Virus record (IMG/VR): IMGVR_UViG_3300032242_003379
Location: 1 to 37,969 of that record
Length of the DNA: 37,969 nt
Source of the DNA: a virus
Reading direction: 5' to 3' (one strand)
In this document: positions 8,682 to 27,266 of the stretch, one piece after another
Position numbering within the stretch: the first letter of the stretch is position 1
Layout: each line of letters starts with the position of its first letter
Notes under the pieces: generated by a model
Database searches by the model: none
Told to the model about the DNA's origin: nothing
Seen by the model: only the letters and a program-made list of their open reading frames with translations
Made by a program: the position numbers and the translations under genes

Positions 8682-9130
8682 CAGCCGGTGCTCCGCTGAA
8701 TGCTGACGGCCGCGCCACCCAGCCGGGCAACCAGGCCCAGCGTATCGCTGCCCCGATAGACCGCATCCACACTGGCCGGCAGGCCGAAGCCAGCGGCGGT
8801 ATTGGCCAGCGCTTCCCGCGCGGCTTCCATGGCCAGCAGGCGCGTTGCCTCACTCGTTTTCGCCCGCGCCAGCAGCCACAGCCGCGACCCGGCGCGGTCC
8901 GTGGTCAGCGCATCCAGCGGCGTGCCGCGCCGCAGCCGCAGGGATTGCGGGGCGGCGGCATCGGTCGGGGTGTCGGGCAGCGTATCATCCGGGCGCGCGC
9001 GGCGATCCTGCAGCAGCGCCAGCGCCATGGTCGTCAGCGGCGTGGCATCCAGGGCCAGGTCGCCATTCACCACCGCCACATCGAAGCGGCGCGCGGCGGC
9101 ATCCCAGGCGAGCGCGATATCGGCAGGCAT
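8681..9130 (-). CDS. Baseplate protein, Mu gp46 family
   Basis: 149 residues from the ATG at 9130 (MPADIALAWDAAARRFDVAV); an upstream in-frame start at 9166 would run through the conserved element described separately. The N-terminal DIAL...GDLAL pattern followed by an ALLQDRRARPDD segment is typical of Mu gp46/GPW-gp25-like proteins. They join hub and wedge in the baseplate. Confidence 0.88.
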   Translation of the reverse strand: MPADIALAWDAAARRFDVAVVNGDLALDATPLTTMALALLQDRRARPDDTLPDTPTDAAAPQSLRLRRGTPLDALTTDRAGSRLWLLARAKTSEATRLLAMEAAREALANTAAGFGLPASVDAVYRGSDTLGLVARLGGAAVSIQRSTG

Positions 9131-9183
9131 CGCCGCAATCTCGCGCGCGCAAGGTGTGGCAGGCACCCTCGCGCCTGCGAGGG
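9128..9183 (-). promoter_or_regulatory. Late-region repeat element, copy a (before gp46)
   Basis: Read on the minus strand, it has a 7-bp-arm dyad (CCCTCGC-AGGC-GCGAGGG, 9166-9183) one base after the gp45 stop. Then come GGGTGCC, a 10-base spacer, a GCGCGCGCG run and GCGGCG joined to the gp46 ATG. Copy b before the protease gene matches it almost base for base across ~55 bp, and copy c after mor matches most of it. By position it corresponds to the Mu late promoter PP. A weak -10-like GAGATT lies about 35 bp from the dyad centre. Regulatory function is inferred. Confidence 0.6.
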
Positions 9184-9184
9184 A

Positions 9185-9685
9185 TCAGGTCATGGTGGGC
9201 GTGGGCCCGGCGCCGCCGCCGTGGCGGTGCGTGTTGAACAGCGACCGCATCGTGGCCATGGATCCGGTCGCGTCCTGCACCGTGGTCGCGGTCAGCGTGC
9301 CGGCTATTTGCACATCGCCGTGGATCTCGACCAGCGGCGCGGTCAGCTTGATCTTTGTCGCCGCCACCACTTCGGCGATGCCGCCCTGGCGGATCACCAC
9401 CCGGTTGCCCTGGCCATCCGCGAAGGCCACTTCGCCGGCCGCTGCATCGCCCTGGCGGGCGCCGGGTAGGGTGGCGGGCAGTGCCACCAGGTTGCCGGGG
9501 TCCCCATCCACCGCCAGCAGCAGCGTCACGCTGCCGGCCGGCGGCACCGCGCTGAAGCCATAGGCGGAAAACACCGGCACGCCGGTCCGCACCACGTCGG
9601 GATGCGTCTCGACATCCACGGTCTGGATGCCGCCGCTATCGTTCACGGCCAGGACCACGCCGCGCAGAATAGATGGCTGAGGCAT
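9185..9685 (-). CDS. Baseplate central spike, Mu gp45
   Basis: 166 residues. An OB-fold-like N-terminus (SILRGVVLAVNDSGGIQTVD) is followed by a beta-helical segment (KIKLTAPLVEIHGDVQIAG) and the tip FNTHRHGGGAGPT. The HxH motif (H153/H155) binds the iron ion at the point of contractile-tail spikes. The trimer is the membrane-piercing needle. Confidence 0.93.
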   Translation of the reverse strand: MPQPSILRGVVLAVNDSGGIQTVDVETHPDVVRTGVPVFSAYGFSAVPPAGSVTLLLAVDGDPGNLVALPATLPGARQGDAAAGEVAFADGQGNRVVIRQGGIAEVVAATKIKLTAPLVEIHGDVQIAGTLTATTVQDATGSMATMRSLFNTHRHGGGAGPTPTMT

Positions 9686-9699
9686 CGTTCAGACCCTTC

Positions 9700-10965
9700 T
9701 CATTCGGCCGTCAGAGGTTCCGCCGTGCCATCCAGCGCCCGCGGCGCGCGGGCGGCGCCGCGGGTCACCGGGGCGCGGCGCGGCGTCACCCGTCCCACCG
9801 GCCGGGGGCGCGAAGCCTCGGTTTCCGCCAGCAGATCCAGCGCATGGCGCCCGACCACGCGCAGCTTCGTGCGCGCACCGTTCTCGCTCCACTCATACGC
9901 CACGCCGGCGATCAGCATGTCTTCCACCAGCCCGGTATAGGGATCGTCCACAGACACCAGCGTGTTTGGCCGCCAGAGCTGCCGCGCATCCCCCGCCCGC
10001 CAGTCCGCCACCGTATAGGTGGCGCTGCGGCCGGCGCTGCGGGCGACGCGCACCGCCCAATTCGCCTGCGTCTGCGCCGCCGCGCCACCGGCCTGGGTTT
10101 CCGCCAGCAGCACGCGGGGGCGATAGCGGGAGATCTCCGCATCCTCCGCCTGCCCCGCCTGCGCCACGCGGGACAGCGCGGACCGGGTGGCCGTGCTGTC
10201 CGGGGCCGCTGCATCCACCCCGGCCGCGCCCGCCGCCGCATCCACATCCACCGGCATGACGCCGGCATAGGCCAGCGCGGCCGCCGCCGATTGCCCCTTT
10301 ACAAGCGTCAGCGAGTAACGGTCCTCCCAGGACAGCAGCGCATCCACCTGCAGGATATTGCCGCCGAATCGCAGCGCGACGGGCGCCATGACTTCGCCCT
10401 GGCCGCCGCTGGTCAGCCGGATGGCGCCCACGCCATCGCTGACCACCAGCAGCCCGCGCAGCTTGGCGGCCTTCGCCAGCACTGCCGCCACGGTCTCCGC
10501 GGCATCGAGACCCAGCAGCGGCAGTGCCGCGCCCACATCGGCATCCGCCTGCACCGTCAGCCCGAAAGGCTGCACCAGCGCCTGCGCGATCTGCGTGATG
10601 GTCTGCTGGCGGTATTCCACCGGCCCGGCCGGCGCAGCCGCGCAGTCCACCAGGTCGCCCGCCTTGTCCCGGCCAACCAGGTCAATCGTCAGGCCGCCAT
10701 CGCCGGCGCGCAGCGTCAGGCGATCCACATACCCGTCCAGCACCAGGTCGCCATCCAGGGCGATCTGCACGGCATCGCCGCAGGCCAGAATGGCCGCCGG
10801 CGCGGCATCCGCCTGCCCCAGCGCCGCCGCCAGCCGGGCGGCATCAATGCCGCGCAATGTGAAGCTGCCGGCCAGCTCCGTCAGGTCCCGCACCACTTCG
10901 ATATCCGTCCAGGCCGCGATCTGGTTGCCCGCAATGGTGACCACGCAGCGGTCCTGTTGCCTCAC
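9700..10965 (-). CDS. Baseplate hub protein, Mu gp44 (gpP)
   Basis: 421 residues. The N-terminus (VVTIAGNQIAAWTDIEVVRD) and the CGDAVQIALDGDLVLDGYVD segment match the Mu gpP/late-control hub family. It trimerises to form the hub that carries the gp45 spike. The start overlaps the end of the gp43-like gene by 4 bp. The C-terminus ends ALDGTAEPLTAE, almost identical to the end of the small protein at 36965-37219. Confidence 0.9.
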   Translation of the reverse strand: MRQQDRCVVTIAGNQIAAWTDIEVVRDLTELAGSFTLRGIDAARLAAALGQADAAPAAILACGDAVQIALDGDLVLDGYVDRLTLRAGDGGLTIDLVGRDKAGDLVDCAAAPAGPVEYRQQTITQIAQALVQPFGLTVQADADVGAALPLLGLDAAETVAAVLAKAAKLRGLLVVSDGVGAIRLTSGGQGEVMAPVALRFGGNILQVDALLSWEDRYSLTLVKGQSAAAALAYAGVMPVDVDAAAGAAGVDAAAPDSTATRSALSRVAQAGQAEDAEISRYRPRVLLAETQAGGAAAQTQANWAVRVARSAGRSATYTVADWRAGDARQLWRPNTLVSVDDPYTGLVEDMLIAGVAYEWSENGARTKLRVVGRHALDLLAETEASRPRPVGRVTPRRAPVTRGAARAPRALDGTAEPLTAE

Positions 10966-12200
10966 GCCAGCCGCTCCAGCACCGCGCCGGCGGAAATCTG
11001 CGCCGGCTGGCGCAGACGGTTGCGCGCGACCAGGTCACGATACTGGCCGATGATGGTCGCCGGCGTGTCGCCCGCCAGGTGGTTCGCCACCACCCAGGCT
11101 TGCGTCGCAGCCGGCACCGTCAGGGTGGTAACCGCCGGCAGCCGGCCCATCAGGCTCTGCAGGTCGCGCGCCAGCGCCGCCCGCAGCCCCGCCATGGCCT
11201 GCCACACCTGCCCGGCCTGGGGGCCGGCCAGGACAGCGGCCTGCATGGTGGCGGCGATGGCGGCATCCGCCTTGCCCAGCCACCCGGCCGCATCATGCTG
11301 CGATTCGAAGGTGATGGTGCCGATAACCTCCGCCGCGCTGGCCAGGGCCAGGGCACGGGCGGCAATCACCACGCCAGCCGGGCCGGCCGGCATGCCGGTG
11401 GCCAGATCCAGCAGCAACCGCGCAGCGACCCGGGGTTCGATCAGCGCGGTGGCGCCGGCCGGCACGCCCAGCGCCCCGGCGCGCGGCGTGACAGCGGCCA
11501 GGGCGATCGCCGCCGGGGGCGCGGCCAGCGCGGAAGCCACGGCGGGCGCAAAGGTGGCGGAGGCAGGCAGGCTGCCGATGCTGCTCAGGTTCTTGATCGG
11601 CGCCGCCAGCACCGGCAGCAGCCCGATGCCACCCTTGGCCGTCGCCACCAGCGTGCCCAGCACGCTGCCCACCTGCGCGCCGAAGCTCGCCACGGCATAG
11701 ACCGCGCCCACCGCCAGCCGCACCGGCGCCAGCACCTGGCCCAGATAGGCGGTCACCTGGTTGCGCAGCTGCCGCACCGCCGCCAGCGCGGCGGAAAGCG
11801 GGTCCTGCTCCGCCAGCGCGGGCGGCGTGTAAGGTGTGAAGCTGGCGCTGAACCGTCCCACGCGCAGCTCGTCTTCCGCGATGCTGGTGGTCGCGGGATC
11901 GGCCAGCACCACTTCCAGCGTGCCCAGACGCGGATGCACCAGCGTGCCGGGCCCCGGGGTGGCGAAGGCCGCTTCCAGGTCCTGCAGCTGGCCGATGTAG
12001 TCATCGCCGATAACCAGCCCCTGGCAGGTAATGGCACCCTGGAACAGCCCCAGGTCTTCCCAGGCGGACGCATCGGCGCCGGGGAAGAACAGGCGTTGCC
12101 ACCGCCGCCCGACTTCCCGGGTGGTATCCGTGATCCAGAAGGGCACGCCGCGGAAGCTGGCGGGGAAGACGCTATCCAGCAGGCTTTCCCAGGCGGGCAT
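10962..12200 (-). CDS. Tail protein, DNA circulation (gpN) family, Mu gp43
   Basis: 412 residues. The N-terminus has the DNA-circulation-N signature: FPASFRGVPFWITDTTREVG, then VIGDDYIGQLQDLEAAF and GTLVHPRLGTLEV. The remainder is Ala-rich and helical. In Mu this protein sits between the tape measure and the hub and acts in baseplate assembly and DNA injection. The ATG overlaps the last base of the tape-measure stop codon (TGATG type). Confidence 0.9.
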   Translation of the reverse strand: MPAWESLLDSVFPASFRGVPFWITDTTREVGRRWQRLFFPGADASAWEDLGLFQGAITCQGLVIGDDYIGQLQDLEAAFATPGPGTLVHPRLGTLEVVLADPATTSIAEDELRVGRFSASFTPYTPPALAEQDPLSAALAAVRQLRNQVTAYLGQVLAPVRLAVGAVYAVASFGAQVGSVLGTLVATAKGGIGLLPVLAAPIKNLSSIGSLPASATFAPAVASALAAPPAAIALAAVTPRAGALGVPAGATALIEPRVAARLLLDLATGMPAGPAGVVIAARALALASAAEVIGTITFESQHDAAGWLGKADAAIAATMQAAVLAGPQAGQVWQAMAGLRAALARDLQSLMGRLPAVTTLTVPAATQAWVVANHLAGDTPATIIGQYRDLVARNRLRQPAQISAGAVLERLA

Positions 12201-13999
12201 CAGGTGGGCCTCAGCATCGCGCCGCGATTGATCGGTGCCAGATCCACGCCGGAGGCTTCGGCGCTGCGCACGCGGGCGCCTGGCGCGGCTTCAACCACGA
12301 TGCGGCCGGATACGCCATTGCCGGCGGGGCGGAAATTCATCGGCTGGAACAGGCCGCCGGGGCCGCCCGGCGCGCGCGGCGCGGGCGCCGGGCCAGGGCC
12401 GCCGGGCACCATGGGGATGCTGGGCAGCAGGCTGCGCAGGCGTTCCATGGCGCCGGTTACGCGCCCGATCACCGCATCGAAGCGCGCGGTGATGCCGGCC
12501 CACAGCGAATCGAAGAACCCGGTCAAGCCGGACCAGGCGGCCTTGATCGCATCCACCGCGCCCGTGCCGATGCGGGTCAGCCAGCCATCCATCCACCCGG
12601 CGAAGGCGTCCATATTCGCCCGCAGCGCAGCGGAGATCCGCTGCCATTCGGCCACCAGCTCATCCCAGTGTTTTGCCACACTCACGGCGGCCACGCCCAG
12701 CGCCGCCAGGACGCCGATCGTCGCCACCACCGGCAGGGACAGCACGCCCAGGCCGGCCGCGACAGCGCCGGCCGCCAAGCCGAGCGCGCCCAGCCCCACG
12801 GTCAGCACGGCAAAGCCGGCGGCGACGGCCGCCACATTCTCGATCAGCCCGGGAAAGCGGCTGTCCAGCATTTCGATCTTGTCCTGGACGAAGGTCAGGG
12901 CGGCATTCAGCGGGCCCAGCACCACGCTGCCGAAGGCCAGTTGCAGCCGGCGGCCGATCTGGGTCACCCGTTCTTCCACGATCTTCAGGGCGAAGAACTG
13001 CCCGCGCGATCGGCTGGCGAAGTCCGTATCCGTCACCGCGCTGGATGCCTTGCGGGCTGCTTCCAGCACCCGCAGGTATTCCTTGCCGTTGGCAATGGCG
13101 GGCCGCAGGAAGTCCAGCACCTGCTTATCGGCGAACAGTTGGCCGATGGCGAACTGGTCGCCCTTGGTCAGCTTCTTGATCTTCTCGACCATGACTTCGA
13201 CGGGGTTCAGACCCTTCTTAGCGGCATCCTGAAACACCGCTTTGATGTCGACGCCCATCGCCTGGAAGTTGCGCACCGCGTCCGGCGCGGTGATTTTCTG
13301 CATGAAGTTGGCCAGGTTATTGGCGGCTTCGGCGCTGGTGCCGGCACCGCGCCGCGCCACCTGCAGCATGGCGCCCAGGCTGTTCACCCCATCGCGGCCT
13401 TTCAGCCCCAGGGCTTCGGCGGCGGCCGTCAGGGCCGGGAACTCCCGGGCCATGTCGCGCAGCTCGAATCGACCTTCCTTGCCGGCGGCGACCAGCGCCC
13501 CCAGCGCATCGGCCATTTCCTTCGGCCCGGAGATTTTCAGGTTCTGGTTCAGCGCCACGGCGGTGGAACTCAGCTCCTCCAGCGCGGCGCCGCTGGCGGT
13601 GGCGGCCTTGGCCAGCACCGGCAAGAACTGGTCTATCAGCTCGGTGGGCACGTTCGCGGCCACCAGCGTGCCGGCGGCCTTGGCCACGTCCGCGCTGGAC
13701 TGCCCGGTTTCCAGCGCCAGCTTTTGATAGGCCTTGGAACTGGCGGCGACCATGTCTTCCACCGCCCTGCCGGTGGCGCCGGCGGTGATCGCGTTCTGCC
13801 TCAGCGTGTCTTCGAAGGCGGCGGCCTGCTGCATGGGGCCCAGGAAGGACAGGCCCGCCACCAGCCCCAGGCCCAGGGACATCTTGCGCGCGGTGCGGCC
13901 GATGCCGTCCAGCTTCTTCGTCATACCGGCCAGCGGCCCGGAAATGCGATCCACCAGCCGCAGGATCAGGCTGGCGGTCATGTCGCGGTTGGCGGCCAT
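12200..13999 (-). CDS. Tape measure protein, Mu gp42
   Basis: 599 residues. The N-terminal part contains the phage tape-measure core (AFEDTLRQNAITAGATGRAV, SSKAYQKLALETGQSSADVA). Long helical stretches follow, then a hydrophobic block at about residues 375-445 that is probably membrane-active during injection. A Pro/Gly-rich linker precedes the C-terminal ~50 residues. Length sets tail length, and 599 residues implies a fairly short contractile tail. It starts directly at the end of the frameshifted tail chaperone. Confidence 0.93.
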   Translation of the reverse strand: MAANRDMTASLILRLVDRISGPLAGMTKKLDGIGRTARKMSLGLGLVAGLSFLGPMQQAAAFEDTLRQNAITAGATGRAVEDMVAASSKAYQKLALETGQSSADVAKAAGTLVAANVPTELIDQFLPVLAKAATASGAALEELSSTAVALNQNLKISGPKEMADALGALVAAGKEGRFELRDMAREFPALTAAAEALGLKGRDGVNSLGAMLQVARRGAGTSAEAANNLANFMQKITAPDAVRNFQAMGVDIKAVFQDAAKKGLNPVEVMVEKIKKLTKGDQFAIGQLFADKQVLDFLRPAIANGKEYLRVLEAARKASSAVTDTDFASRSRGQFFALKIVEERVTQIGRRLQLAFGSVVLGPLNAALTFVQDKIEMLDSRFPGLIENVAAVAAGFAVLTVGLGALGLAAGAVAAGLGVLSLPVVATIGVLAALGVAAVSVAKHWDELVAEWQRISAALRANMDAFAGWMDGWLTRIGTGAVDAIKAAWSGLTGFFDSLWAGITARFDAVIGRVTGAMERLRSLLPSIPMVPGGPGPAPAPRAPGGPGGLFQPMNFRPAGNGVSGRIVVEAAPGARVRSAEASGVDLAPINRGAMLRPT

Positions 14000-14567
14000 C
14001 AGCGGCGATCCTTATTCAGCCGCTGCCAGTATTCCGCCGCGGCGTTATGCCAGAACCGAGCGTCCGGTTCGGTCAGCGCTTCCAGCTCCGCCCGGGGCCA
14101 GCCGTAGTGCCGGCCGATGGCGGCCAGGATCACCGGCCAGTCGGGCGGCCATTCCCTAAAAAAACGGCGATCACCTCGCTGGCGGCGTGGATGTCGCTGG
14201 CATCCATGCGGTCGTAGATCAGCGCCATGCGGGCTTCGGTGCAGCGGCAAGACTGGGCGAAGGCCACCACCGCCGCGGCGCCGCCGCCGGCGTTCTGGAT
14301 GGCGCGCAGCGCGCCACCGGTCAGCCGGTGCATCACCAGGACATCGATCGTCTCTTCCGTCACGTCGCCGGTGCGGCCGGACCGCGTGCGCAGCGTGACC
14401 GGGTAGCGCAGCGGCAGGCGCACCGCGCCGCCGGGCAGCTTTTCGGCATGCTCCGGCAGGGCGGCCGTGGCCGGCGCCGCTTCGTCCAGGGTGACCACAT
14501 CGGCGACCGGCGCGGCGGCGTCCGCGTCCTCCAGCACCACGATATCGGCGGGGGCGATATCAGCCAT
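13999..14567 (-). CDS. Tail assembly chaperone, -1 frameshift product (gp41/41')
   Basis: The extended chaperone made when ribosomes slip back one base at TTTTTTTA (14164-14157). It would share residues 1-133 with gp41 and continue FFREWPPDWPVILAAIGRHY to the stop at 13999, about 189 residues in all. The extension has high GC at third positions and lacks a good start of its own, so it is best explained as a frameshift extension. The pair lies between tail tube and tape measure, where such frameshifts are conserved in tailed phages. The long form should bind tape measure while recruiting tube protein. Confidence 0.85.
14130..14567 (-). CDS. Tail assembly chaperone, unshifted form, Mu gp41
   Basis: 145 residues. 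The conserved part begins PGGAVRLPLRYPVTLRTRSG and continues with TVE-like TEETIDVLVMHRLTGGALRA, matching the Mu gp41 tail assembly chaperone family. The N-terminal ~40 residues are Ala/Asp-rich. The start overlaps the last codons of the tail tube gene by 8 bp. The zero-frame ends NGRPTGR soon after the slippery site. Confidence 0.9.
   Translation of the reverse strand: MADIAPADIVVLEDADAAAPVADVVTLDEAAPATAALPEHAEKLPGGAVRLPLRYPVTLRTRSGRTGDVTEETIDVLVMHRLTGGALRAIQNAGGGAAAVVAFAQSCRCTEARMALIYDRMDASDIHAASEVIAVFLGNGRPTGR
14157..14164 (-). promoter_or_regulatory. Programmed -1 frameshift site
   Basis: The minus strand reads GTTTTTTTAGGG. In the gp41 frame this is GTT TTT TTA GGG; after slippage it is GTT TTT TTT AGG. 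T TTT TTA fits the X XXY YYZ rule. It sits 30-40 bases before the zero-frame stop, as expected for a tail chaperone slip site. Confidence 0.88.
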
Positions 14568-14922
14568 TCAGGATCTCCTGGAAATCGCCACCCGACCACA
14601 TCAGCTCGATCTTCCCGCCTTCGCCGGCGGTGATGGTCGGGCGCTGGGTCAGGAAGGCGTCCGGGAAGACGTAGGACTGGCCGGTGTCACAGGTCACCTG
14701 CAGCTCGGCTTCCTGCACCGCCAGCAGCGCGGTCATGGACCGGCCACGGGCCAGCGGCATGGTGGCCGTGATCTCGCTGGCTTCGAACTTCTGCGCCCGG
14801 CCCACCTGGCGGCCGTAGACGATGGGGTCCTGCGCCAGGCCGCCCAGCTTCAGGCTGGCGCCGGCTTCGATCGGCAGGGTTTCACCGTTCCACCGGATGG
14901 AAAGAAGACCAAGGACCTGCAT
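14560..14922 (-). CDS. Tail tube protein, Mu gp40 (gpM)
   Basis: 120 residues. The pattern LSIRWNGETLPIEAGASLKL, then GRAQKFEASEITATMPLARG and a central VTCDTGQSYVFPDAF strand match the Mu-type tail tube family. The protein polymerises into the inner tube around the tape measure. It is encoded between sheath and tail chaperone, the standard order. Confidence 0.92.
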   Translation of the reverse strand: MQVLGLLSIRWNGETLPIEAGASLKLGGLAQDPIVYGRQVGRAQKFEASEITATMPLARGRSMTALLAVQEAELQVTCDTGQSYVFPDAFLTQRPTITAGEGGKIELMWSGGDFQEILNG

Positions 14923-14934
14923 TGCGGGCGCTCC

Positions 14935-16398
14935 TTACCGGCTGAATTCGAGGGCAGCGGCGAAGACCATCAGGCTGCCCATCACCTGCACCACCAGCTT
15001 GCCGTTCAGCCGGTTGGGATCGGTAAGGTCGATCTGGAAGGCCGCCTGGGGGATGGTCACCGCTTCGTTCTGTATCCAGCCGTACCGCGCATACAGCTTG
15101 CAGCGGGCGGCCCAGGCATTGGCCATCGCCTGCGGCGTGACAACGCTGGCGTCCGTCTCCGCCGCGATGGACCCGTCCCGCGCGAGCTTGGCGCGCGGGT
15201 AGGCGGTGCGAACATACTGCCGCCAGTCGTAGCGGATGCGGCTGAGCGTGGCGGGGACCATGATGTCCAGCCAGGACGCATCGGCGGCGCCGGTATCGGT
15301 GTTGCGGCGGGTGGTGATGATCCGCTCCAGCGCCACATTGCCATCCGGCGTTGCCGTCCAGGTGGAAATGCCGGCGGTCAGCAGGCCCTGGCGTTCCGTG
15401 TCCAGCCAGCGCAGCGTTGGAATCGGCGGCATGACGCCGGGCAGCACCAGGCCGCGCAGCTGCCGCGCCGGGTCATTTGCCAGCTGCTGGCTGGCGACGC
15501 CGCACAAGGTCGCGGCCCAAATCCAAGGCGGCGTCGGGCTGCTATTGAACCCGATCAGGGTCAGCGTCTTCGCGTTGTATGCCGCAGACAGCGTGGTCTG
15601 GGCGGTGTAAGTGCCGCTGAACCCGGCATATAGGTGCATGTCGCGGGCGACGCCGGCGGTGTAGCGGCTTTCCGCCTCCGCGATCAAAGCCGCCAGAACG
15701 GTGGACGAGGTGCTGGGTACAGCAACATCCGTGTACCAGTCCGAAGCGATGGCGGCGATGGTCGCCGTCACGTCAATATCACCAGAGCCGCCCGACAGCT
15801 GCGTATAGGCATAGGCGCCGGCGAAGGGCACGGTCCACCACGGAAAATAGATTGGAATTCCGTTGCCGACCACGCCGGCATTTTTCGCCGTCAGCGTTAC
15901 AACCGCCAGTGCGCTGGTCGCTATGACCGGCATGCTGGGGATGGCGTTGATGGCGGCGGCAAAGCGCGTCGCAATCGACGCGGTGGTGTCGGTCGGGGAA
16001 ACCAGAATGGACACTGGCGTGCCGCCGATCCACATCGGCAGCGTGCTGGCCTGCGTCGGCAACGACGACACGGTAACCGTGCCGGATGCTTTGACGCCGC
16101 CGGTGGGGTCGGGCAGCCCCAGGACCGTCAGCGGCGTATAGGGGTTGGCGGTCAGGAAAGCCACGGCCATCAGCGCCGCCTGGCTGCCGGCGCCGAAAAT
16201 TGTGGCGGCGTCTTCCTTGCGCGTGATAGCGAACGGCACGTTGTAATTCTGGGTGCCGATCTGCTGCCCGATCACCAGCGCGCGCGCAGGCCAGGTGGCC
16301 AGGGTGGTATTCGTGGGCTGCGGCCGCACTTCCACTAGGGTGGACGGCACCAGCCAGCCGGGCGGGATCTCGGAAAAGGGCGCGATGGTATCGGGCAT
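14935..16398 (-). CDS. Tail sheath protein, Mu gp39 (gpL)
   Basis: 487 residues, typical length for Mu-like sheath proteins. The N-terminus (PFSEIPPGWLVPSTLVEVRP, RALVIGQQIGTQN) and the C-terminal DASWLDIMVPATLSRIRYDW/ARDGSIAAETDASVVTPQAM region match gpL. It forms the contractile outer sheath. Its presence shows the virion is a myovirus. Confidence 0.95.
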   Translation of the reverse strand: MPDTIAPFSEIPPGWLVPSTLVEVRPQPTNTTLATWPARALVIGQQIGTQNYNVPFAITRKEDAATIFGAGSQAALMAVAFLTANPYTPLTVLGLPDPTGGVKASGTVTVSSLPTQASTLPMWIGGTPVSILVSPTDTTASIATRFAAAINAIPSMPVIATSALAVVTLTAKNAGVVGNGIPIYFPWWTVPFAGAYAYTQLSGGSGDIDVTATIAAIASDWYTDVAVPSTSSTVLAALIAEAESRYTAGVARDMHLYAGFSGTYTAQTTLSAAYNAKTLTLIGFNSSPTPPWIWAATLCGVASQQLANDPARQLRGLVLPGVMPPIPTLRWLDTERQGLLTAGISTWTATPDGNVALERIITTRRNTDTGAADASWLDIMVPATLSRIRYDWRQYVRTAYPRAKLARDGSIAAETDASVVTPQAMANAWAARCKLYARYGWIQNEAVTIPQAAFQIDLTDPNRLNGKLVVQVMGSLMVFAAALEFSR

Positions 16399-16400
16399 GC

Positions 16401-19189: not shown

Positions 19190-19702
19190 TCAGTTGCTCC
19201 CCATGAAGCCGGCCAGGGCCAAGCCGGCGCGGGCCTTCTCGGCGGCGAAAGCCTTCGGATCGACCTGCAGCAGCGCAATCACGCTGCGGTCGGCGGCGGT
19301 CAGGCCATCGGCATCGGCCGCCGGCAGCGGGGCCTGGATGCCACCGGCATGCAGGCTCGGCATGGCGGCCAGCTCGCGCTCCACCGCTTCCGGGTCCTGG
19401 GCGTGGCGGCTGATGTAATGGTCCCGCAAGGCCTTCACCGGCTTGCCGTCATGGATCGCCTTGTCGACCACACCAGCCGCGCGCTCGCGCGCGCGCTCGG
19501 TGCGAGCGGCGGTCAGCTCCTCGCGCAGCTGCTGCATCTGGCCTTGCAGGGTGGTTGCGGTCTCCGTCGCCTTGCCGGCGCGCTGCGCCTGCATGGTGCG
19601 GTCCGCCATCACCGCTTCCATCGCGGTGATAATCGCTGCCGCGTCCGCAGCCTCATCCAGGCCCAGAATCGCGCGCAAGCGCTTCATAAGCTCCTCGTCC
19701 AT
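19190..19702 (-). CDS. Internal-start scaffold protein, Mu gpZ-like
   Basis: In-frame ATG at 19702 (residue 163 of the protease gene) with AAGGAG five bases upstream, the best ribosome site in the neighbourhood. The 170-residue product starts MDEELMKRLRAILGLDEAAD and is only the helical scaffold half. Mu makes its scaffold gpZ from an internal start in gene I, so the same arrangement is very likely here. Confidence 0.8.
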   Translation of the reverse strand: MDEELMKRLRAILGLDEAADAAAIITAMEAVMADRTMQAQRAGKATETATTLQGQMQQLREELTAARTERARERAAGVVDKAIHDGKPVKALRDHYISRHAQDPEAVERELAAMPSLHAGGIQAPLPAADADGLTAADRSVIALLQVDPKAFAAEKARAGLALAGFMGSN

Positions 19703-20188
19703 AGCCGCTCCTTCAGCGTGCAGGGTGGTCAGTTGCGGCAGATTGGGCACATTGGTCAGGCTGGCGCGGCGCAGCAGCCGCACCTCCCCATCCGCCTTGG
19801 CGATATCCATCACGGGAGAAATCCCGCGATAGGCGCGGTCCGCCACCAGCGCGCGGCCGGCATCGGTCCATTCTACGCGGCCCCAGATGCCGCTCTCTCG
19901 GGCCTGCAGCTCCACAATCCAGCCACGCGCCGGCGCTGGGGTGCCGGTGGCAGCGCCCAGATCCGTGACGTGCGCTTCATCGATCGGCGCCGGCAGCAGC
20001 GCGGCGCTGGCGGTGATCACCGCCGCGGGATCGGCCAGCCGATAGGGTCCCCGGCCATCCACGCCCCGGAAGACGCCGGCCGGGATCAAGTGCACCCACT
20101 CCGGCGGCTCAGCGCCAAGCGCGGCCTGCAGGGCGATAACCAGGCGCTCTGCCGCAAGCGGCGACGCCAAGGGTCGGGTGCGATCCAT
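19190..20188 (-). CDS. Prohead protease with scaffold domain, Mu gpI
   Basis: 332 residues. The N-terminal ~150 residues form the protease part (WVHLIPAGVFRGVDGRGPYR, RGWIVELQARESGIWGRVEW, YRGISPVMDIAKADGEVRLL, ASLTNVPNL). The C-terminal ~170 residues are a charged, coiled-coil scaffold. This matches Mu gpI, which matures the prohead. The start at 20188 follows repeat element b. Confidence 0.92.
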   Translation of the reverse strand: MDRTRPLASPLAAERLVIALQAALGAEPPEWVHLIPAGVFRGVDGRGPYRLADPAAVITASAALLPAPIDEAHVTDLGAATGTPAPARGWIVELQARESGIWGRVEWTDAGRALVADRAYRGISPVMDIAKADGEVRLLRRASLTNVPNLPQLTTLHAEGAAMDEELMKRLRAILGLDEAADAAAIITAMEAVMADRTMQAQRAGKATETATTLQGQMQQLREELTAARTERARERAAGVVDKAIHDGKPVKALRDHYISRHAQDPEAVERELAAMPSLHAGGIQAPLPAADADGLTAADRSVIALLQVDPKAFAAEKARAGLALAGFMGSN

Positions 20189-20240
20189 CGCCGCACCATC
20201 GCGCGCGCGCCCAGCCTTCCGGCACCCTCGCGCATGCGAG
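20186..20240 (-). promoter_or_regulatory. Late-region repeat element, copy b (before protease)
   Basis: The minus strand has a dyad (CTCGC-ATGC-GCGAG, 20227-20240), GGGTGCC, a 10-base spacer, a GC-alternating run and GCGGCG joined to the protease ATG. The first 20 bases differ from copy a at one position and the total length differs by one base. The location equals Mu PI. No clear -10 hexamer is visible, so an activator-dependent promoter is only one reading. Confidence 0.6.
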
Positions 20241-20298
20241 TGTGAGGCGCTTTCCGAAGAAGCCGCGTCAGAAGCCCGTACAAGCGATTTGGGGGTTA

Positions 20299-20318
20299 GG
20301 GGGTAGCGAGATACCCCC
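20299..20318. repeat. Stem-loop in the gpG-protease gap
   Basis: GGGGGTA at 20299-20305 and TACCCCC at 20312-20318 form a perfect 7-bp stem with a 6-base loop. It lies between the 20-bp-spaced repeats and element b in the only sizeable non-coding gap of the head operon. No U-run follows on the minus strand, so it is not a standard terminator. Confidence 0.6.
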
Positions 20319-20330
20319 GGCGGTCCTGGG

Positions 20331-20380
20331 GCGCCTCTTAGACCTGTCCAGCGCCTCTTATTTTACCCATCCGCGTCTTA
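20331..20380. repeat. Three 10-bp direct repeats at exact 20-bp spacing
   Basis: GCGCCTCTTA at 20331-20340 and 20351-20360, and CCGCGTCTTA at 20371-20380, are separated by 10-bp spacers, so they face the same side of the helix. They begin just after the gpG stop. The core TAAGAGGC recurs at both arms of the repeat at 36929-36967, and GCCTCTAAGACC (160-171) near the right end matches 20333-20344 at 11 of 12 positions. The Mu strong gyrase site lies in the equivalent G-I gap near the genome centre. Function unknown. Confidence 0.65.
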
Positions 20381-20385
20381 GGGGG

Positions 20386-20913: not shown

Positions 20914-21680
20914 CAGCGGGGCTTCGGCATGGGCGCGGGCGGCGGCGGCGGCACCCGCGCGGCCCAGGCGGCTTCTGCCGGCACGCGGGGGCGGCCATGC
21001 CAGGCCGCGCCGGGGTTGTAATCGAAGCCAGGGTCTATCCCCACAGGCACTTCGGACACTTCCCCGGTCTTCGGGTTGCGCCAGGGGCGGGTGCCTTCAT
21101 TGGGCGCGATATCGACGCCGGCCTTGCCCTGGCGCGACAGACCGCGCCCATTCATCGGCCGCACCCGGCAGCCGCAGCGCCAGCCATTCGGCGGATAGTG
21201 GCTGTCCCACCACGGATCATCCGCGCGCAGAGTCAGGCCGTTCCAGGCCAGGTGCTGGCGGCGCGGATGCAGGCTGCCGCTGTGCACGTACTGCCAATAC
21301 GGGTAGGCGGTCAGCGTGTCCGGATCGCTCAACTGGCGGTACTCGCCGGCGGAATACGCCATCGCCAGATTCGTCTCATAGATGATGGAGGCCCGCCAGC
21401 CGGGTTCATGCGGCTGCACCCAGCCGCGGGCTTCCACGATTTCATCGAACTTCGCCCGGAAATCGGCCAGCGTGGTGCCATCGATCAGCGCCTGCGCGAT
21501 GGCATCCTGAAAATCCTTCAGCAGGGCGTCACTGGCGGCGCCGGCCACCATGAAGGCCCGGGCATGCGCGGTGCGCCAGACATCCGTCCAGTGCGTGGTG
21601 CCGATCCGCGTCTTGCCCAGGAAGTATTCGATCGCCGCTTCGGGCTTCAGGCCGATGGCCTGGATGTCGCTGGGCGTCAT
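20913..21680 (-). CDS. Head morphogenesis protein, Mu F (gp30)
   Basis: 255 residues. RASIIYETNLAMAYSAGEYR, HPRRQHLAWNGLTL and the ending YPPNGWRCGCRV are the MuF minor-head signature. The protein is shorter than Mu gp30 and ends in a Pro-rich tail. It binds portal and is injected or helps assembly. The start overlaps the portal stop by 4 bp. Confidence 0.93.
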   Translation of the reverse strand: MTPSDIQAIGLKPEAAIEYFLGKTRIGTTHWTDVWRTAHARAFMVAGAASDALLKDFQDAIAQALIDGTTLADFRAKFDEIVEARGWVQPHEPGWRASIIYETNLAMAYSAGEYRQLSDPDTLTAYPYWQYVHSGSLHPRRQHLAWNGLTLRADDPWWDSHYPPNGWRCGCRVRPMNGRGLSRQGKAGVDIAPNEGTRPWRNPKTGEVSEVPVGIDPGFDYNPGAAWHGRPRVPAEAAWAARVPPPPPAPMPKPR

Positions 21681-23296
21681 GGCGCGGGCGGGGCGGCGCG
21701 CATTTCCTCCAGCACCTGTTGCTGGCCGGCCAGGTTGGCCAGCGCCATGCCGCGCCCCAGCACCTGCGCCAGCTCGGCGGGGTCCAGCTCCAGCCGGGCG
21801 ATGCGCTGCGCCAGGTCCTGCAGATCGGTCGCGGCCATCAGCTCGGTCTTAACCGCGTCTACCAGCCCGCTGAGAGCGCCCTCAGCGTCCAATGAGACGC
21901 GATCCAGCAGCGCTTCCAGCGCCACCGGCGCCTGCCGCGCATGCAGCGTCCGCAGCCCAAGCCCGGCGGGCGCGGGCGGCGGCGTGCGCAGGTTCAGGGT
22001 GGGCAGGCCCGGGGTCGGCAGGCTGGTGCCCGGCAGCGGGCGGCCGCCGATCACATCGTCTTCGGCGCCGGGCGGCGGCGTCAGGCCCAGGCGGTCGCGG
22101 ATCTCCGATGCCCGCACCCGCAGGCCCAGCGGGCCCAGGCGTTCCACCGCCGTCGCCATCTCGGCGATCGGCACTTCGTCCGGCCGCCCGATCTCCACCA
22201 CCGGATAGGCGGGCTGCGGGCCAAAATTGAACGCGATGATGTCCCGCACCACCTGGGCATTGATGCTGCCGCACAGCAGCGCCGCATCCGCCCTCTCGTA
22301 GTCTTCCTGGACCTGCCGGTGTTCCTTGGACACCGCATGCCCGCCGGCGATCGCATCCGTGGTGGCGGTCTGGCCCAGCACCAGCTTGGACACCTGTTCA
22401 TCGATCCAGCGGCAGCGCCGCTCATACAGCTCGCTGCTCTGCGCCACGTTGCCGGGTTCGATGAACTCGATTTCCATGGACTTCGGGACGATGGCGGCCA
22501 TGTCGCCGGCGATGTTCGCCACCGCGCGCCACAGCGTATCGCGGTCCTGTTCGGTGCTATCGGGGCCGTACCGCCCCAGCCGCACCGGCTGGCCGAAATG
22601 CCGGACAAAGACCGCCCAATCCTGCATGGTGAAGGACTTGTACATCCAGGCCCAAACCGCGACCCGGCCCAGCCCACCGCGCAGCACCTGGCCGGACTTG
22701 CTGACGTGCCGATGCACCACGAACTTATGCGGCGCGAGCGGGTCCCGGCCTTCGCCGTTATTCGTGCGCAGCAGGATGGTCTCCCCATCCCGCCAATCAA
22801 CCTCGAAGTACCGCTGATGCCGCCAGACGAAGCGCAGCGGCAGGACCGCGTTCGGTTCCGTCCGCCATGCGATCTCCAGCACCGAATAGCCTTTCGCCAG
22901 CCCGTCCATCATGTGGAACAGCGCGGCGCGCAAAGCCCCGGTCGCGATCCAGGCGCGCAGGAAGTCCGCATGCTGTTCATGCGCGGGATCGTCGCTGGCG
23001 GCCTTCACCGTGATGGGCAGCTGAGAGACCTGGTTCTTCCTGGTGGTCAGCACCGCACGGTAATGGAGCTCTCGTTCCTCGATATCCTCCAGCAGCTGCA
23101 TGTACTGCTGGCTTTGCCCGATGCCGCTTTGCTGCAGGATCGCCGCCAGGCTTTCCGGCGTCAGGCCGGTGGCCGGGAAATAGTTGGCGAAGGGGCTGCG
23201 CGGCGCGGAAAAGCTGGGTTGCGCCACCGGCTGGCGCAGCCGGCGGATCTCGTCCGCCGAAATCGCGCGGCCGAACTGGTCGATCAGGCCGGCCAT
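21677..23296 (-). CDS. Portal protein, DUF935 family, Mu gp29
   Basis: 539 residues. FANYFPATGLTPESLAAILQ, the DIEERELHYRAVLTTRKNQV helix, MMDGLAKGYSVLEIAWR and VLGQTATTDAIAGGHAVSKE are the DUF935 portal hallmarks. The dodecameric portal is the DNA gateway and the packaging motor's docking site. It lies directly after the terminase and a 60-residue gene. Confidence 0.95.
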   Translation of the reverse strand: MAGLIDQFGRAISADEIRRLRQPVAQPSFSAPRSPFANYFPATGLTPESLAAILQQSGIGQSQQYMQLLEDIEERELHYRAVLTTRKNQVSQLPITVKAASDDPAHEQHADFLRAWIATGALRAALFHMMDGLAKGYSVLEIAWRTEPNAVLPLRFVWRHQRYFEVDWRDGETILLRTNNGEGRDPLAPHKFVVHRHVSKSGQVLRGGLGRVAVWAWMYKSFTMQDWAVFVRHFGQPVRLGRYGPDSTEQDRDTLWRAVANIAGDMAAIVPKSMEIEFIEPGNVAQSSELYERRCRWIDEQVSKLVLGQTATTDAIAGGHAVSKEHRQVQEDYERADAALLCGSINAQVVRDIIAFNFGPQPAYPVVEIGRPDEVPIAEMATAVERLGPLGLRVRASEIRDRLGLTPPPGAEDDVIGGRPLPGTSLPTPGLPTLNLRTPPPAPAGLGLRTLHARQAPVALEALLDRVSLDAEGALSGLVDAVKTELMAATDLQDLAQRIARLELDPAELAQVLGRGMALANLAGQQQVLEEMRAAPPAP

Positions 23297-23478
23297 TACG
23301 CGGCCCGCCCGTCAACCAGCGCCACGCCGCCGGGCAGACGGCTGCCCAGCGGGGCAACAGACAGGGCCGGATGCGGCACATAGACCAGCTGCCCCAGCGT
23401 CGGGTCGCGATAGATCCAGCCGCCCGGCACCGCCAGGCGTTCCAGGCCACCGGCCACCAGCTCCCACCGATCGATCAT
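23296..23478 (-). CDS. Small protein between terminase and portal
   Basis: 60 residues, ATGA overlap with the terminase stop and a shared base with the portal start. Sequence features are RWELVAGGLERLAVPGGWIY and YVPHPAL. There is no family I can name. Tight coupling on both sides and normal codon bias make it a real gene, probably structural or packaging-linked. Confidence 0.75.
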   Translation of the reverse strand: MIDRWELVAGGLERLAVPGGWIYRDPTLGQLVYVPHPALSVAPLGSRLPGGVALVDGRAA

Positions 23479-25061
23479 ATCAAGGCCCCTTTCGACAAGG
23501 CGCGCACAAAGCCGCCGTGGCGGTCGCCCAGCATCGCGTCGCGCGCGGCTTCCGCCCGCGCATCCAGCTGGGCCTGGTAACCCTCCAGACCGGCAACCTG
23601 CGCGCGGTAGCCGTATTCGGATGGTTCGGCCTTGGCCGCGAACAGCGCCAGTGCGGCGGCAATCGCGGCGTCGCCGTGCCGGCCTTCGCCATCGCTATCC
23701 AGCCGGCGGGCCGGCACGCGGATTACGCCGCGTTCCCAGCGCAGCAGGCGGAAATCATCGGCAATGTCCTGGTCGCGCGGCACGCTGAAAGTGCCGTCCT
23801 CGAAGGCGGCTTTCAGCGGCGGCATGTTTTCCCGGTACCAGGGTTCGGTCAGGCTGATCGATAGCGCGCGTTCGCCGTACTTCAGCACCGCCTGTTCCGC
23901 AAGATACATGCCGTTGCCGCCCTCATCCAAGGCGACGGCGCGCAGGCGCGGCAGGCGATTTGCCACGAAGAACAAGATATCGCGCTGCGCTTCGAAGGGG
24001 ACGTTCCGCAGCTCAAGCACGAAGGGCGTGTGCCGGCTGGTATCCGCGGCGATCGTCACCGGCCACAGGACCGAAAGGTCCCTGCGCCGGGCGAAATCCA
24101 TGCCCATGGCGTGCGGCCGCGCGCGGTCCAGCCGGTCCAGCACCGGCGCCAGCTCCAGCCGGCAGAAGGCGTCTACGGCATCCCGCCGTTCCGCTTCGGG
24201 CAGATGCAGGAACCCCGCGTCGCACTTCCAGCGCAGCACCGGCGCCGGCGACATGCGGGCGGTGACCAGGCTGCCAGGAATCGGCGCGGCCCCGCCGCTG
24301 GCCGGAATGCAGAATAGCTCCTCATCCGCGTTGCCCCGGTACTTCGCCAGGATATCCGCTCGAAAGGCGGCTTCGGTTTCCGGCGACCAGGTCTTCCCCG
24401 TGCGCAGGCAGATGCGCTTGAACAGGCCTTCGGCCAGGGCTTCATCGAAGGTGCAGCGCTGCAGCGTGTAGGGCAGGCGCCCGCCCCGGATATCCTGCAC
24501 CAGCCCGTTGAAGGCGTTGTCCTCGCCCAGATGGGTGGACAGCACCAGGACCTTGCCGCCCCACATCAGATAGGCCAGCGCCGCTTTCAGCACGCCGGAC
24601 AGGTCATCCATGAAGGCCGCTTCGTCCAGGATCGCCAGACCCTGCTTGCCGCGCAGCGAACGCGCCATGGATGGCAGGGCGGTCACCTCAAATCCGCTGG
24701 CGAACTTAACGCGGAAGGCGCCCACGCCGGCATCGGGCTTGTCCGGGTCCGTGAAGACGAATTCTTCCACCGGCCGAGCCGCCAGCTGGAACTCCTTCGC
24801 CCAATCGGCCACGTAGCCGATGAACTCGCGGGTCATTTCCCGCTCATAGCCCATGTACATCACATCCATGCCGCCGGCCGCGCGGCTGCGGGCGGCCAGC
24901 AAGGCGGCGATCGCCGCTGCCACCCAGGAAAAGCCGGTGCGGCGGCTTTTCTCCACCACCACTACCGAATCTGTCTCCACTGCCGCGACCAGCCGCTGCT
25001 GGTAGGGCAGCAGGACGGCAGGCAGATCGGCGGCGGGGTCGGGCTTGCGGGTTACCGCCAT
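23475..25061 (-). CDS. terL: Terminase large subunit, Mu gp28
   Basis: 528 residues. The N-terminal ATPase has a Walker A-like loop EKSRRTGFSW (about 37-46) and Walker B LAILDEAAF (Asp146/Glu147). A C-terminal RNase H-type nuclease starts near residue 317 at MGMDFARRRDLSVL. In Mu-like phages it packages phage DNA by a headful mechanism from sites near the transposase end, taking flanking host DNA with it. The ATG overlaps the upstream gene by 10 bp. Confidence 0.95.
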   Translation of the reverse strand: MAVTRKPDPAADLPAVLLPYQQRLVAAVETDSVVVVEKSRRTGFSWVAAAIAALLAARSRAAGGMDVMYMGYEREMTREFIGYVADWAKEFQLAARPVEEFVFTDPDKPDAGVGAFRVKFASGFEVTALPSMARSLRGKQGLAILDEAAFMDDLSGVLKAALAYLMWGGKVLVLSTHLGEDNAFNGLVQDIRGGRLPYTLQRCTFDEALAEGLFKRICLRTGKTWSPETEAAFRADILAKYRGNADEELFCIPASGGAAPIPGSLVTARMSPAPVLRWKCDAGFLHLPEAERRDAVDAFCRLELAPVLDRLDRARPHAMGMDFARRRDLSVLWPVTIAADTSRHTPFVLELRNVPFEAQRDILFFVANRLPRLRAVALDEGGNGMYLAEQAVLKYGERALSISLTEPWYRENMPPLKAAFEDGTFSVPRDQDIADDFRLLRWERGVIRVPARRLDSDGEGRHGDAAIAAALALFAAKAEPSEYGYRAQVAGLEGYQAQLDARAEAARDAMLGDRHGGFVRALSKGALI

Positions 25062-25333
25062 TCGCTCTCAGCCCGCGCCTGCGCGCCGGTCCACGCATCC
25101 GGCGCCGGCGGCTTTTCGGCATCCTTCACGCTTGGCAGCCCGCGCCAGCCGCCGCACCACTGGTCTTCGCGCACGGTAGGCCACACGGTATGCAGCCGGC
25201 CGTCCTGTTCCGTGGTGCGCGGCGGCCGCGCCAAGCAGGCGGCAACGGTGTAGCGCTTGCCGTCCCGCGTCGCGGGGAAGGCCCGCTCCCGGTTCCAGAA
25301 GCCGCAAGCATCGCAGCGCTTTGGATCGCTCAT
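25052..25333 (-). CDS. Small Cys/Trp protein, possible zinc ribbon
   Basis: 93 residues, ATGA overlap with the small terminase stop. KRCDACGFWNRE near the N-terminus, a later Cys, and TVREDQWCGGWR resemble small phage proteins that pair an N-terminal CxxC-FW with a terminal DWCGE-like motif. Probably metal-binding; the role is unknown. It sits between small and large terminase genes, so packaging is a reasonable guess. Confidence 0.72.
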   Translation of the reverse strand: MSDPKRCDACGFWNRERAFPATRDGKRYTVAACLARPPRTTEQDGRLHTVWPTVREDQWCGGWRGLPSVKDAEKPPAPDAWTGAQARAESEWR

Positions 25334-25899
25334 GCTGCCACCCCCAGGATGCGCGCCTTGATCGCGTCCACCGTTTCCCCGGACAGGCCGGCGGCGCGCG
25401 CCATTTCAGCCGCCGCCGAAGCGGCTTCCCCACGAGCCCGGTCCGCCGCCCGCTTTTCCGCCTGCGCCGCATAGTCCAGGTCCGTCCGCGCAGCGCGGGA
25501 CACGCTTTCCAGCGCGCGGGCAAGCTGCATCAGCCCCTGGCTGTCCATCGCCGCGCCGTCGCCATCGGCCTTTGCCGCATCGCGCGCGCGTCGCATCAGG
25601 CTGAGTATCTGATCGTGCAGCAGCTCCACGTTCAGCCGCAGCGCCGCGCTGCCCGGGGCATCGTCCAGGCTCTGCGCCAGATACGCGGCCACGCCGCGGC
25701 TGCGGCGGAGATCTTCGGCCAGCTCCTGGTCCACCCGGCTGATGTGCCGGGCCAAACCGCTGCGGCTGATGGCGGCCGCTTCGCCACCCATGGCCTTCAG
25801 GTGCGCCAGGATGTCGTCCAGCGTGTGCCGTTCGCGCAGCCGGCCAATCTCCGCCTGCAGCTCGATCGGCAGGCGTTCCACCTTGGACCGGCGGGCCAT
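25330..25899 (-). CDS. Terminase small subunit, DUF3486, Mu gp27
   Basis: 189 residues from the ATG at 25899 (TAATG overlap with the upstream stop). MARRSKVERLPIELQAEIGR, then ISRSGLARHISRVDQ form the HTH-containing DUF3486 N-terminus. A long helical C-terminal region follows. It recognises the packaging site and loads the large subunit. Confidence 0.92.
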   Translation of the reverse strand: MARRSKVERLPIELQAEIGRLRERHTLDDILAHLKAMGGEAAAISRSGLARHISRVDQELAEDLRRSRGVAAYLAQSLDDAPGSAALRLNVELLHDQILSLMRRARDAAKADGDGAAMDSQGLMQLARALESVSRAARTDLDYAAQAEKRAADRARGEAASAAAEMARAAGLSGETVDAIKARILGVAA

Positions 25900-26204
25900 T
25901 ACGAGAGGACCCGGTCCGCGACGCCCGGATGATGCTGACCGCGCGCAACCACCAGCCCGGCATCGCGCAGCTTCGCCAGCCACAGCTCCCCGGCCGGCGG
26001 GGACGCAAGGCGTTCCAGGTCCACCAGCCCGGCGCGGGACAGCCACAGCAGCTCCGCCCGCAAGCCATCCTGGCCGGCATCGCCCAGCCGGGCGGCCACA
26101 AACTGCCGCGCCACCCGTTCATTCACCTGGTGGCCATCGGCCTCCAGCAGGGCGTCCAGCAGCAGACGGCGGCGATGTTCGCTCATTAGCGCGGCAAGGC
26201 TCAT
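25899..26204 (-). CDS. Winged-helix-like phage protein, Mu gp26 position
   Basis: 101 residues, ATGA overlap with the DUF2730 stop. Helical segments (SEHRRRLLLDALLEADGHQV, RAELLWLSRAGLVDLERL, LRDAGLVVARGQ) suggest a winged-helix fold. In Mu-like phages a small protein of this type sits between the DUF2730 and DUF3486 genes. DNA binding during packaging is plausible but unproven. Confidence 0.75.
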   Translation of the reverse strand: MSLAALMSEHRRRLLLDALLEADGHQVNERVARQFVAARLGDAGQDGLRAELLWLSRAGLVDLERLASPPAGELWLAKLRDAGLVVARGQHHPGVADRVLS

Positions 26205-26581
26205 AGGCCTTTTTCCTTCTGAAGCTCATGCTGCAGTAGGACGGTCAGCTGGCGCTCTATCCGGCTCATGGTCTCGCTGGTGTGCCGCGTGCTGATCGTC
26301 ATCAGGTCCCGCAGGGCTTGCAGCTCGGATTGCAAGCCGGTCATGCGGCTTTCCACTGCGCCCACCCGGTCCGCCACGCGCTGCAGGTCGGCATGGGTCG
26401 GGATGCTGTTCAGCTTGCCCTCCACCTCGCCCAGCCGGCCGTCGATTTCATCCACGGTGTCGCGGGCAGCAAAGTCGCGCGCCAGGCGGGCGCGCAGCAC
26501 CCAATAAGCGGCGCCGCCGGCGGTTAGGAAGGTGCCGAACAGCGCGGCGATTTCGCCAAAATCCAGCCCGAACAGGGTCAT
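26201..26581 (-). CDS. DUF2730 membrane-anchored coiled-coil protein, Mu gp25-like
   Basis: 126 residues. One N-terminal membrane segment (FGEIAALFGTFLTAGGAAYW) is followed by a heptad-rich coiled coil (about 40-115). This is the DUF2730 layout. Function is unknown; it is conserved upstream of the packaging genes. ATGA overlap with the zinc finger gene. Confidence 0.87.
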   Translation of the reverse strand: MTLFGLDFGEIAALFGTFLTAGGAAYWVLRARLARDFAARDTVDEIDGRLGEVEGKLNSIPTHADLQRVADRVGAVESRMTGLQSELQALRDLMTISTRHTSETMSRIERQLTVLLQHELQKEKGL

Positions 26582-26796
26582 GCCGCGCGGCTCCCCAGCT
26601 CAATCAGCTCTCGGCACGCCACGCAATGCACCGCGCTGGGATAGGCTCGCAGGCGGGCGGCGGGGATCGGCGCGTCGCAATGCAGGCACATGCGCTCTGT
26701 GGCGGCGTCGGCTGGCGCCAAGCGCTGCCTGACGGCGGCGATGGCCAATTCGGTTGCTAGTTGTACCAGCGGCTCCGCCGCGTCCGCGTGGTCCAT
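26578..26796 (-). CDS. TraR/DksA-type zinc finger protein
   Basis: 72 residues with four cysteines (C37, C40, C58, C61) in the CxxC-17-CxxC arrangement of DksA/TraR zinc fingers, plus ARLRAYPSAVHCVACREL. TraR-like proteins bind RNA polymerase in the secondary channel and alter promoter kinetics. Being the first gene after mor and after repeat element c, it could tune late transcription. SD-like AAGGG lies about 10 bases before the ATG. Confidence 0.88.
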   Translation of the reverse strand: MDHADAAEPLVQLATELAIAAVRQRLAPADAATERMCLHCDAPIPAARLRAYPSAVHCVACRELIELGSRAA

Positions 26797-26810
26797 GGAA
26801 GTACCCTTGC

Positions 26811-27266
26811 CTAGCCGCGCCGGCGACGGGCGGGCTCGCGCGCATCCTCGCGCGCGCGGGCAGGCGCAGGCACCCCCGCGGCTGCGGGGTCAGTGGGGAA
26901 CAGGCTGCCTTGCGCGTCGGTCATCAGCGCCGCTTGAAGGTGGCGATGGACGGTGCTTTCCCAGCACCCCAGGCGGCGGGCAATTTCCCGGTAGGACAGG
27001 CCGCGGGCGCGATACAGCCGCATGCGCCAATCCCGCGCCAGGGGGATGCGGATTTCCTCCCCGCCCCGGATCTCCGCCAGGGCCCGCGCTCCAGGCAGCC
27101 CCACCAGCCGCGCCAGCTCGCTGCCCTGGTTGGGAATGCGCGCGCAGTACACCGCCGTGCCGCCGGCTTGTTCGATGGCATGCAGCGCGGCGTCTTCGCC
27201 CACGGCATCCACCAGCCATGCAATTTCCACCGGCGGGCGGATGGGGCGGGGCGGGGCGTTAGCCAT
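26811..27266 (-). CDS. mor: Mor/C-type transcription activator
   Basis: 151 residues. The Mor pattern shows in GGTAVYCARIPNQGSELARL, the short beta strand RGGEEIRIPLARDW, and an HTH (SYREIARRLGCWESTVHRHL). Mu has two such proteins, Mor for middle and C for late genes. Only one is visible here, so it probably drives the late genes directly. The C-terminal ~35 residues are Pro/Ala/Arg-rich and overlap element c. The ATG overlaps the preceding stop by 8 bp. Confidence 0.88.
   Translation of the reverse strand: MANAPPRPIRPPVEIAWLVDAVGEDAALHAIEQAGGTAVYCARIPNQGSELARLVGLPGARALAEIRGGEEIRIPLARDWRMRLYRARGLSYREIARRLGCWESTVHRHLQAALMTDAQGSLFPTDPAAAGVPAPARAREDAREPARRRRG
26835..26889 (-). promoter_or_regulatory. 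Late-region repeat element, copy c (end of mor)
   Basis: The minus strand has a dyad (CCCCGC-AGCC-GCGGGG, 26874-26889) then GGGTGCC, a 10-base spacer, a CGCGCGCGAG run and GATGCGCGCGAG. The dyad-to-run spacing is as in copies a and b. It overlaps the last ~25 codons of mor and precedes the zinc finger gene, the position of Mu Plys. GC-rich repeats can look alike by chance, but the ordered match over ~50 bp is unusual. Confidence 0.55.

Follow-up and report, generated by a model that had tools for sequence, protein, structure and literature searches.

The window examined here, that is the whole analyzed stretch of 37,969 nucleotides of viral DNA, has a GC content of 69% and carries three similar elements on its minus strand: copy a at 9128-9183, copy b at 20186-20240 and copy c at 26835-26889. 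A preliminary description had placed them at these positions, and all three were found there. Copy a leads directly into the gene of gp46, a baseplate wedge protein (8681-9130, minus strand; PF07409, phrog_180), whose start codon at 9130 was set by alignment with relatives, and copy b into the gene of the head maturation protease, a homolog of Mu I (19190-20188, minus strand; PF10123, phrog_328). Copy c lies within the ORF of a Mor/C-type late activator gene (26811-27266, minus strand). The first gene after it encodes a DksA/TraR-like zinc finger protein of an RNA polymerase-binding family (26578-26796, minus strand; PF01258, phrog_54), which may act on the GC-rich discriminators of late promoters.

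The order of parts given earlier was confirmed; each copy has a dyad followed by GGTGCC, a spacer of 10 bp and an alternating CG run. Copy a reads CTCGCAGGCGCGAG-GGTGCC-TGCCACACCT-TGCGCGCGC-GAGATT-GCGGCG-ATG. Its dyad CTCGC-AGGC-GCGAG (9168-9181), the proposed site of the Mor/C-type activator at the gp46 promoter, has homologous dyads in relatives; GGTGCC (9162-9167) occupies the -35 position, the CG tract (9143-9151) lies in the spacer and is conserved in relatives, and the proposed -10 hexamer GAGATT (9137-9142), in which the relatives conserve A and T, is followed by the discriminator GCGGCG (9131-9136). Copy b reads CTCGCATGCGCGAG-GGTGCC-GGAAGGCTGG-GCGCGCGCGC-GATGGT-GCGGCG-ATG, with the dyad CTCGC-ATGC-GCGAG (20227-20240), a proposed activator site of PI that also has counterparts in relatives, GGTGCC at -35 (20221-20226), the CG tract (20201-20210), the proposed -10 GATGGT (20195-20200) and the discriminator GCGGCG (20189-20194). 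In copy c, CCCGCAGCCGCGGG-GGTGCC-TGCGCCTGCC-CGCGCGCGC-GAGGAT-GCGCGC, the dyad CCCGC-AGCC-GCGGG (26875-26888) is the proposed activator site of Plys and is followed by GGTGCC at -35 (26869-26874), the CG tract (26850-26858) and the proposed -10 GAGGAT (26844-26849), a hexamer also found at a site of the related phage G004 (25242). Over their first 20 bases, copies a and b are identical at 19 and thus differ at one, as described before, and copies a and c are identical at 17.

Two other features of the window were noticed. Near-identical 24-base segments at 1369-1392, 1495-1518 and 1559-1582 (minus strand, within 1359-1583) are probably repeats inside coding sequence. A CCCGCAGGCGCGGG dyad on the plus strand at 1238-1253, close to where the late region ends, has neither CG run nor -10 and is outside the promoter set.

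The activator gene gave the only significant Mor/C match in the window (phrog_836, E 2.4e-20, with alignments to relatives), and in 33 records a strong match of this kind occurred once per phage. All 20 of the 20 homologs of the window protein were matched by phrog_836, and 10 of the 20 by Pfam Mor PF08765, which did not match the window protein itself. A structural model of the protein (pLDDT 88) was compared using Foldseek and VIA, and only HTH proteins were among the matches listed, 1RR7 not being one of them. The sequence profile reached 1rr7 at E 0.33, a weak match, and gave a weak alignment of 40 columns with Mu C (probability 35%), with which an HTH and a C-terminal Q-x-D-L-F motif may be shared. 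A scan with the single window protein gave no matches, and one alignment contained no block of sufficient conservation for a scan. The phrog_836 and Pfam Mor matches give good support at the sequence level for membership in the Mor/C family. The nearest Mor relatives are those of G020 (55% identity) and G033 (54%). We also noticed that the stop codon which usually follows the conserved Q-x-x-L-F end is missing from the mor-like ORF (26811-26895), and the ORF runs for about 28 further codons through copy c; a similar, shorter extension is present in G004.

The similarity of the three copies within the window is, by itself, marginal evidence. An equally good three-way match in shuffled DNA, which the preliminary description had counted against the elements, was absent from 82 of 89 dinucleotide shuffles and present in 7 (20-mers, one strand), and the window holds further equally good 20-mer triples in coding DNA. 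A descriptor built on the relatives (dyad, CG run and ANNNT at a fixed distance) matched only copies a, b and c on both strands of the window; at least three matches arose in 22 of 100 shuffles. The three-way similarity was therefore dropped as a proof, and the case rests on the relatives.

A blind IUPAC scan for GGGCATGA-N(9-16)-GCGCGCGCGATA over 2.9 million viral contigs returned 47 stretches, and the spacer was exactly 10 in 43 of the 45 distinct matches. Most of them lay directly before a gp46 gene; others followed a mor-like gene or were at different points of the late region. We then relied on an unbiased set of 52 nonredundant upstream regions, gathered by gp46 protein homology alone. 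An alternating CG run of at least 8 was present in the last 40 nt before gp46 in 88% of these, as compared to 0.8% of random 40-mers from the same loci and 5% of dinucleotide shuffles. The run usually ended 11-15 nt before the ATG, and the tract sits near -23 to -14, in the spacer next to the -10. Where a clear dyad was seen (39 upstreams), its center was 42.5-46.5 nt before the ATG in 35 and exactly 44.5 or 45.5 nt in 29. L126 and L127, which have the gp46 proteins closest to that of the window (66-70% identity), show CCGCGCGCGCGAAGATGCGCGCG-ATG or a near copy of it. The tract is still ACGCGCGCGCG in a phage of 47% GC (L166) and is GCGTACGCG in one of 43% GC (L138), with the alternation of purines and pyrimidines kept. 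Assembled genomes of alphaproteobacteria yielded 24 prophages, and all 24 had the layout, their hosts being Rhizobium, Agrobacterium, Brucella/Ochrobactrum, Mesorhizobium, Shinella, Afifella, Amorphus, an Acetobacteraceae MAG and others. Among 385 sampled alphaproteobacterial genomes the strict pattern occurred in one, that of Agrobacterium vitis, which carries such prophages; one of its sites (L286) is directly after a mor gene. An AT-rich gp46 query yielded 3 loci only. The phage collection that we searched held no match to alphaproteobacterial gp46 of this type, so it offered no annotated isolate usable for the gp46 promoter. In some relatives, additional late promoters of the same layout were seen elsewhere in the late region (G001 at 25283, L081 at 1300 in reversed orientation, L085, L097 and L101), with a leader of at least 20 nt instead of an immediate ATG.

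The preliminary description had found no good -10 hexamer. The relatives indicate otherwise, since [TCG]ANNNT is present at the right spacing in them and in all three window copies. Of the gp46 upstreams, 46 have a CG run, and ANNNT with its A at -11 to -14 occurred in 40 of these; shifting the frame upstream gave no such signal. The hexamer ends about 6-8 nt before the gp46 ATG, with the A and T spaced like -11 and -7, and it falls in the classes TANNNT, CANNNT and GANNNT. The window hexamers GAGATT, GATGGT and GAGGAT belong to the GANNNT class, which is also used by G020 and G033, where an identical GATGGT is present at Plys. The -35 position is occupied by GGTGCC or CATGA and holds no good -35 element.

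In copies a and b the position of the -10 puts +1 on the ATG, thus leaderless mRNAs are predicted for gp46 and the protease, with transcription starting on the A of the start codon; counted from there, the dyad center is about 44.5 nt upstream in copy a and about 45.5 nt in copy b. The GCGGCG joined to the start codon would have the same implication, which had been missed earlier. Shine-Dalgarno 4-mers were found in 2 of 52 upstreams of gp46 and in 0 of 27 of the protease, and the sequence features expected of leaderless genes, a missing Shine-Dalgarno site and a -10 six to eight nt before the ATG, are both present. Leaderless mRNAs are common in alphaproteobacteria, with 375 reported in Caulobacter (PMC4117421) and 171 in S. 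meliloti (PMC3616915). With those the window genes would share a start codon at +1, besides the missing Shine-Dalgarno site and an alphaproteobacterial host; however, they come from host genes, whereas here activator-dependent phage structural operons are predicted to be leaderless.

On the protease side we examined 20 viral contigs with a relative of the protease, 16 of them extended, plus the isolates D3112 and RC1. In each genome, the 400 bp that precede the protease were compared without gaps with all other sequence. In about 10 genomes a dyad or dyad-like stretch recurred a short distance behind the mor-like gene, at other late-region positions, or both, with a sequence that varied from phage to phage; some relatives (G025, G037) had no dyad directly after mor. 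In 22 of 27 protease upstreams, a dyad scoring at least 6 preceded an in-frame ATG by 43.5-46.5 nt. The CG tract was present in 1 of the 27 and TGG at the extended -10 position in 10; the tract is replaced by TGGCA, an extended -10-like motif, in G023, G026, G034, G047 and others. Sigma-54 was considered for the TGGCAC at some of these promoters and rejected, because on inspection the GC element was missing from where the spacing would require it. The scan of related Mu-like phages thus recovered a conserved dyad before both gp46 and the protease, and it is this independent conservation at homologous positions that excludes chance. The dyad of gp46 scored 18.7/22 against PI of its own phage and 14.3/22 against PI of other phages (p 9e-13), and 18.0/22 against its own Plys and 14.0/22 against Plys of others (p 4e-9); both p values are nominal, because related phages are not independent.

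Dyad distance between phages correlated with distance between the Mor HTH regions (Mantel r 0.54), and the correlation persisted after gp46 distance was removed (partial r 0.43, p 6e-4). Given Mor, no residual correlation with gp46 distance was left (r 0.02). This covariation is the best sequence evidence that Mor may bind the dyad. The earlier suggestion that the elements are sites of the single Mor/C-type activator gains support from it, as well as from the conserved position, the center near -44.5 and the one phage-specific dyad used three times. Because the elements are conserved in relatives and the dyad tracks the Mor HTH and not gp46, we consider them very probably to be late promoters of a Mu-like phage, namely Plys, PI and a tail promoter at gp46, the phage most likely being one of alphaproteobacteria. 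Each would most likely consist of a landing site for the activator followed by an unusual CGCGCGCG stretch, a layout common to dozens of related phages. In the proposed mechanism, a dimer of the single Mor/C-type activator would bind the dyad about 44 bp before the transcription start, as Mor does at Mu Pm, and would recruit or isomerize host RNA polymerase of the sigma-70 type. The polymerase would use the non-consensus -10 ([GTC]ANNNT) with no usable -35, and the alternating CG tract fills the part of the spacer that adjoins the -10. Transcription of gp46 and the protease would begin on the A of the ATG and give a leaderless mRNA with no Shine-Dalgarno site.

The CG tract is the most universal part of the layout at gp46 and is present in all three window promoters. 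It is not indispensable, since it was absent in 6 of 52 gp46 upstreams (L185, for example, has the dyad before gp46 without it) and was rare at the protease of relatives. Mu C at Pmom is reported to alter the DNA conformation in the spacer next to the -10 (as cited in PMC4461284). Most likely, the tract would act as a non-melting, stable or torsion-sensitive spacer, and the promoter would stay off as long as the activator has not distorted it. A rather doubtful extension of this idea makes the tract a core-promoter element of its own, a torsion switch of left-handed or unwound DNA next to the -10 which locks the promoter in the closed state until activator binding and negative supercoiling flip it, so that late leaderless transcription would be coupled to the state of phage transposition. 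We found no description of a conserved CG tract in a promoter spacer in the literature.

The preliminary description had offered a role at the RNA level as the alternative. In such a case the dyad would form a hairpin within an extended late transcript and act in translation, stability or antitermination, with the CG run and GCGGCG in the 5ʹ leader. GC-rich dyads with short loops would indeed fold as RNA, and copy c lies inside a transcribed gene. This reading loses ground because the dyad is upstream of the inferred start; moreover, the dyad and the start codon enclose a -10 signature whose conserved A and T keep a fixed spacing, the distance of the dyad agrees with that known for DNA-bound Mor, its sequence follows the DNA-binding domain of Mor, and there is no Shine-Dalgarno site for a leader to control. 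We therefore regard it as improbable. Equally slight is the chance that the promoters are the same and the dyad is bound by another host or phage regulator, the Mor/C-type protein acting indirectly. The dyads of the closest Mor relatives, G020 and G033, are unlike those of the window, which would fit such a regulator; however, the partial Mantel correlation is with the Mor HTH and not gp46, the dyads have the Mor geometry, and each phage has one Mor/C gene, usually beside its own Plys.

Intrinsic or factor-dependent terminators or attenuators between the late operons would explain dyads at operon borders, one of them just after mor, but are hardly credible, as the parts 3ʹ of the dyad stay constant up to the next start codon; the intrinsic form, a hairpin with a T run, was rejected because no T run follows any of the three copies. 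That CG-rich DNA of a 69% GC genome produced the dyads and CG runs by composition fits the shuffle counts above, but has almost no chance of being right in view of the conserved position in relatives, including those of 47% and 43% GC, and of the single genome with the strict pattern among those sampled from the class.

As probable Mor/C-dependent late promoters, the elements can be compared with those of phage Mu, which we mapped on the Mu record using the published promoter oligonucleotides (PMC4461284). At Mu Pm, which is activated by Mor, the dyad is centered at -43.5, with no -35 and no extended -10 (PMC4287176); in the window copies and most relatives its center is 44.5-45.5 nt before the inferred +1. 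Unlike the window elements, Pm is one promoter for the C gene, without a CG tract and outside any set of structural-gene promoters. The C-activated Plys, PI and PP share with the window a Mor/C-family dyad overlapping the -35 and a non-consensus -10 and -35, and in both phages one promoter follows the activator gene and one precedes gene I. The proposed match of the three copies to PP, PI and Plys thus holds for copies b and c; copy a, directly before gp46, corresponds to Mu PP only approximately and is not at its place, since PP maps within gp43 at a distance of about 350 bp from gene P, on its upstream side. Mu Plys and PI start about 24 and 25 nt before their genes, and the Mu promoters have no CG tract. 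Whereas Mu makes C in a separate middle stage under Mor, the window has a single Mor/C-type gene. New with respect to Mu would be this single gene, the predicted leaderless operons of protease and gp46, the tail promoter before gp46 and the CG tract. Our search found no literature on such late promoters outside Mu.

On this comparative evidence, the elements appear to represent a known kind of system, Mor/C-dependent late promoters, in which the core promoter is built in an unusual way and the structural operons are predicted to be leaderless. Activation of the Mor/C type would thereby reach beyond Mu to a large set of alphaproteobacterial phages, most of them unstudied, which would provide dozens of natural pairs of activator and operator from which to deduce the recognition code of Mor/C proteins, and in which the head and tail operons are predicted to be expressed from leaderless mRNAs.
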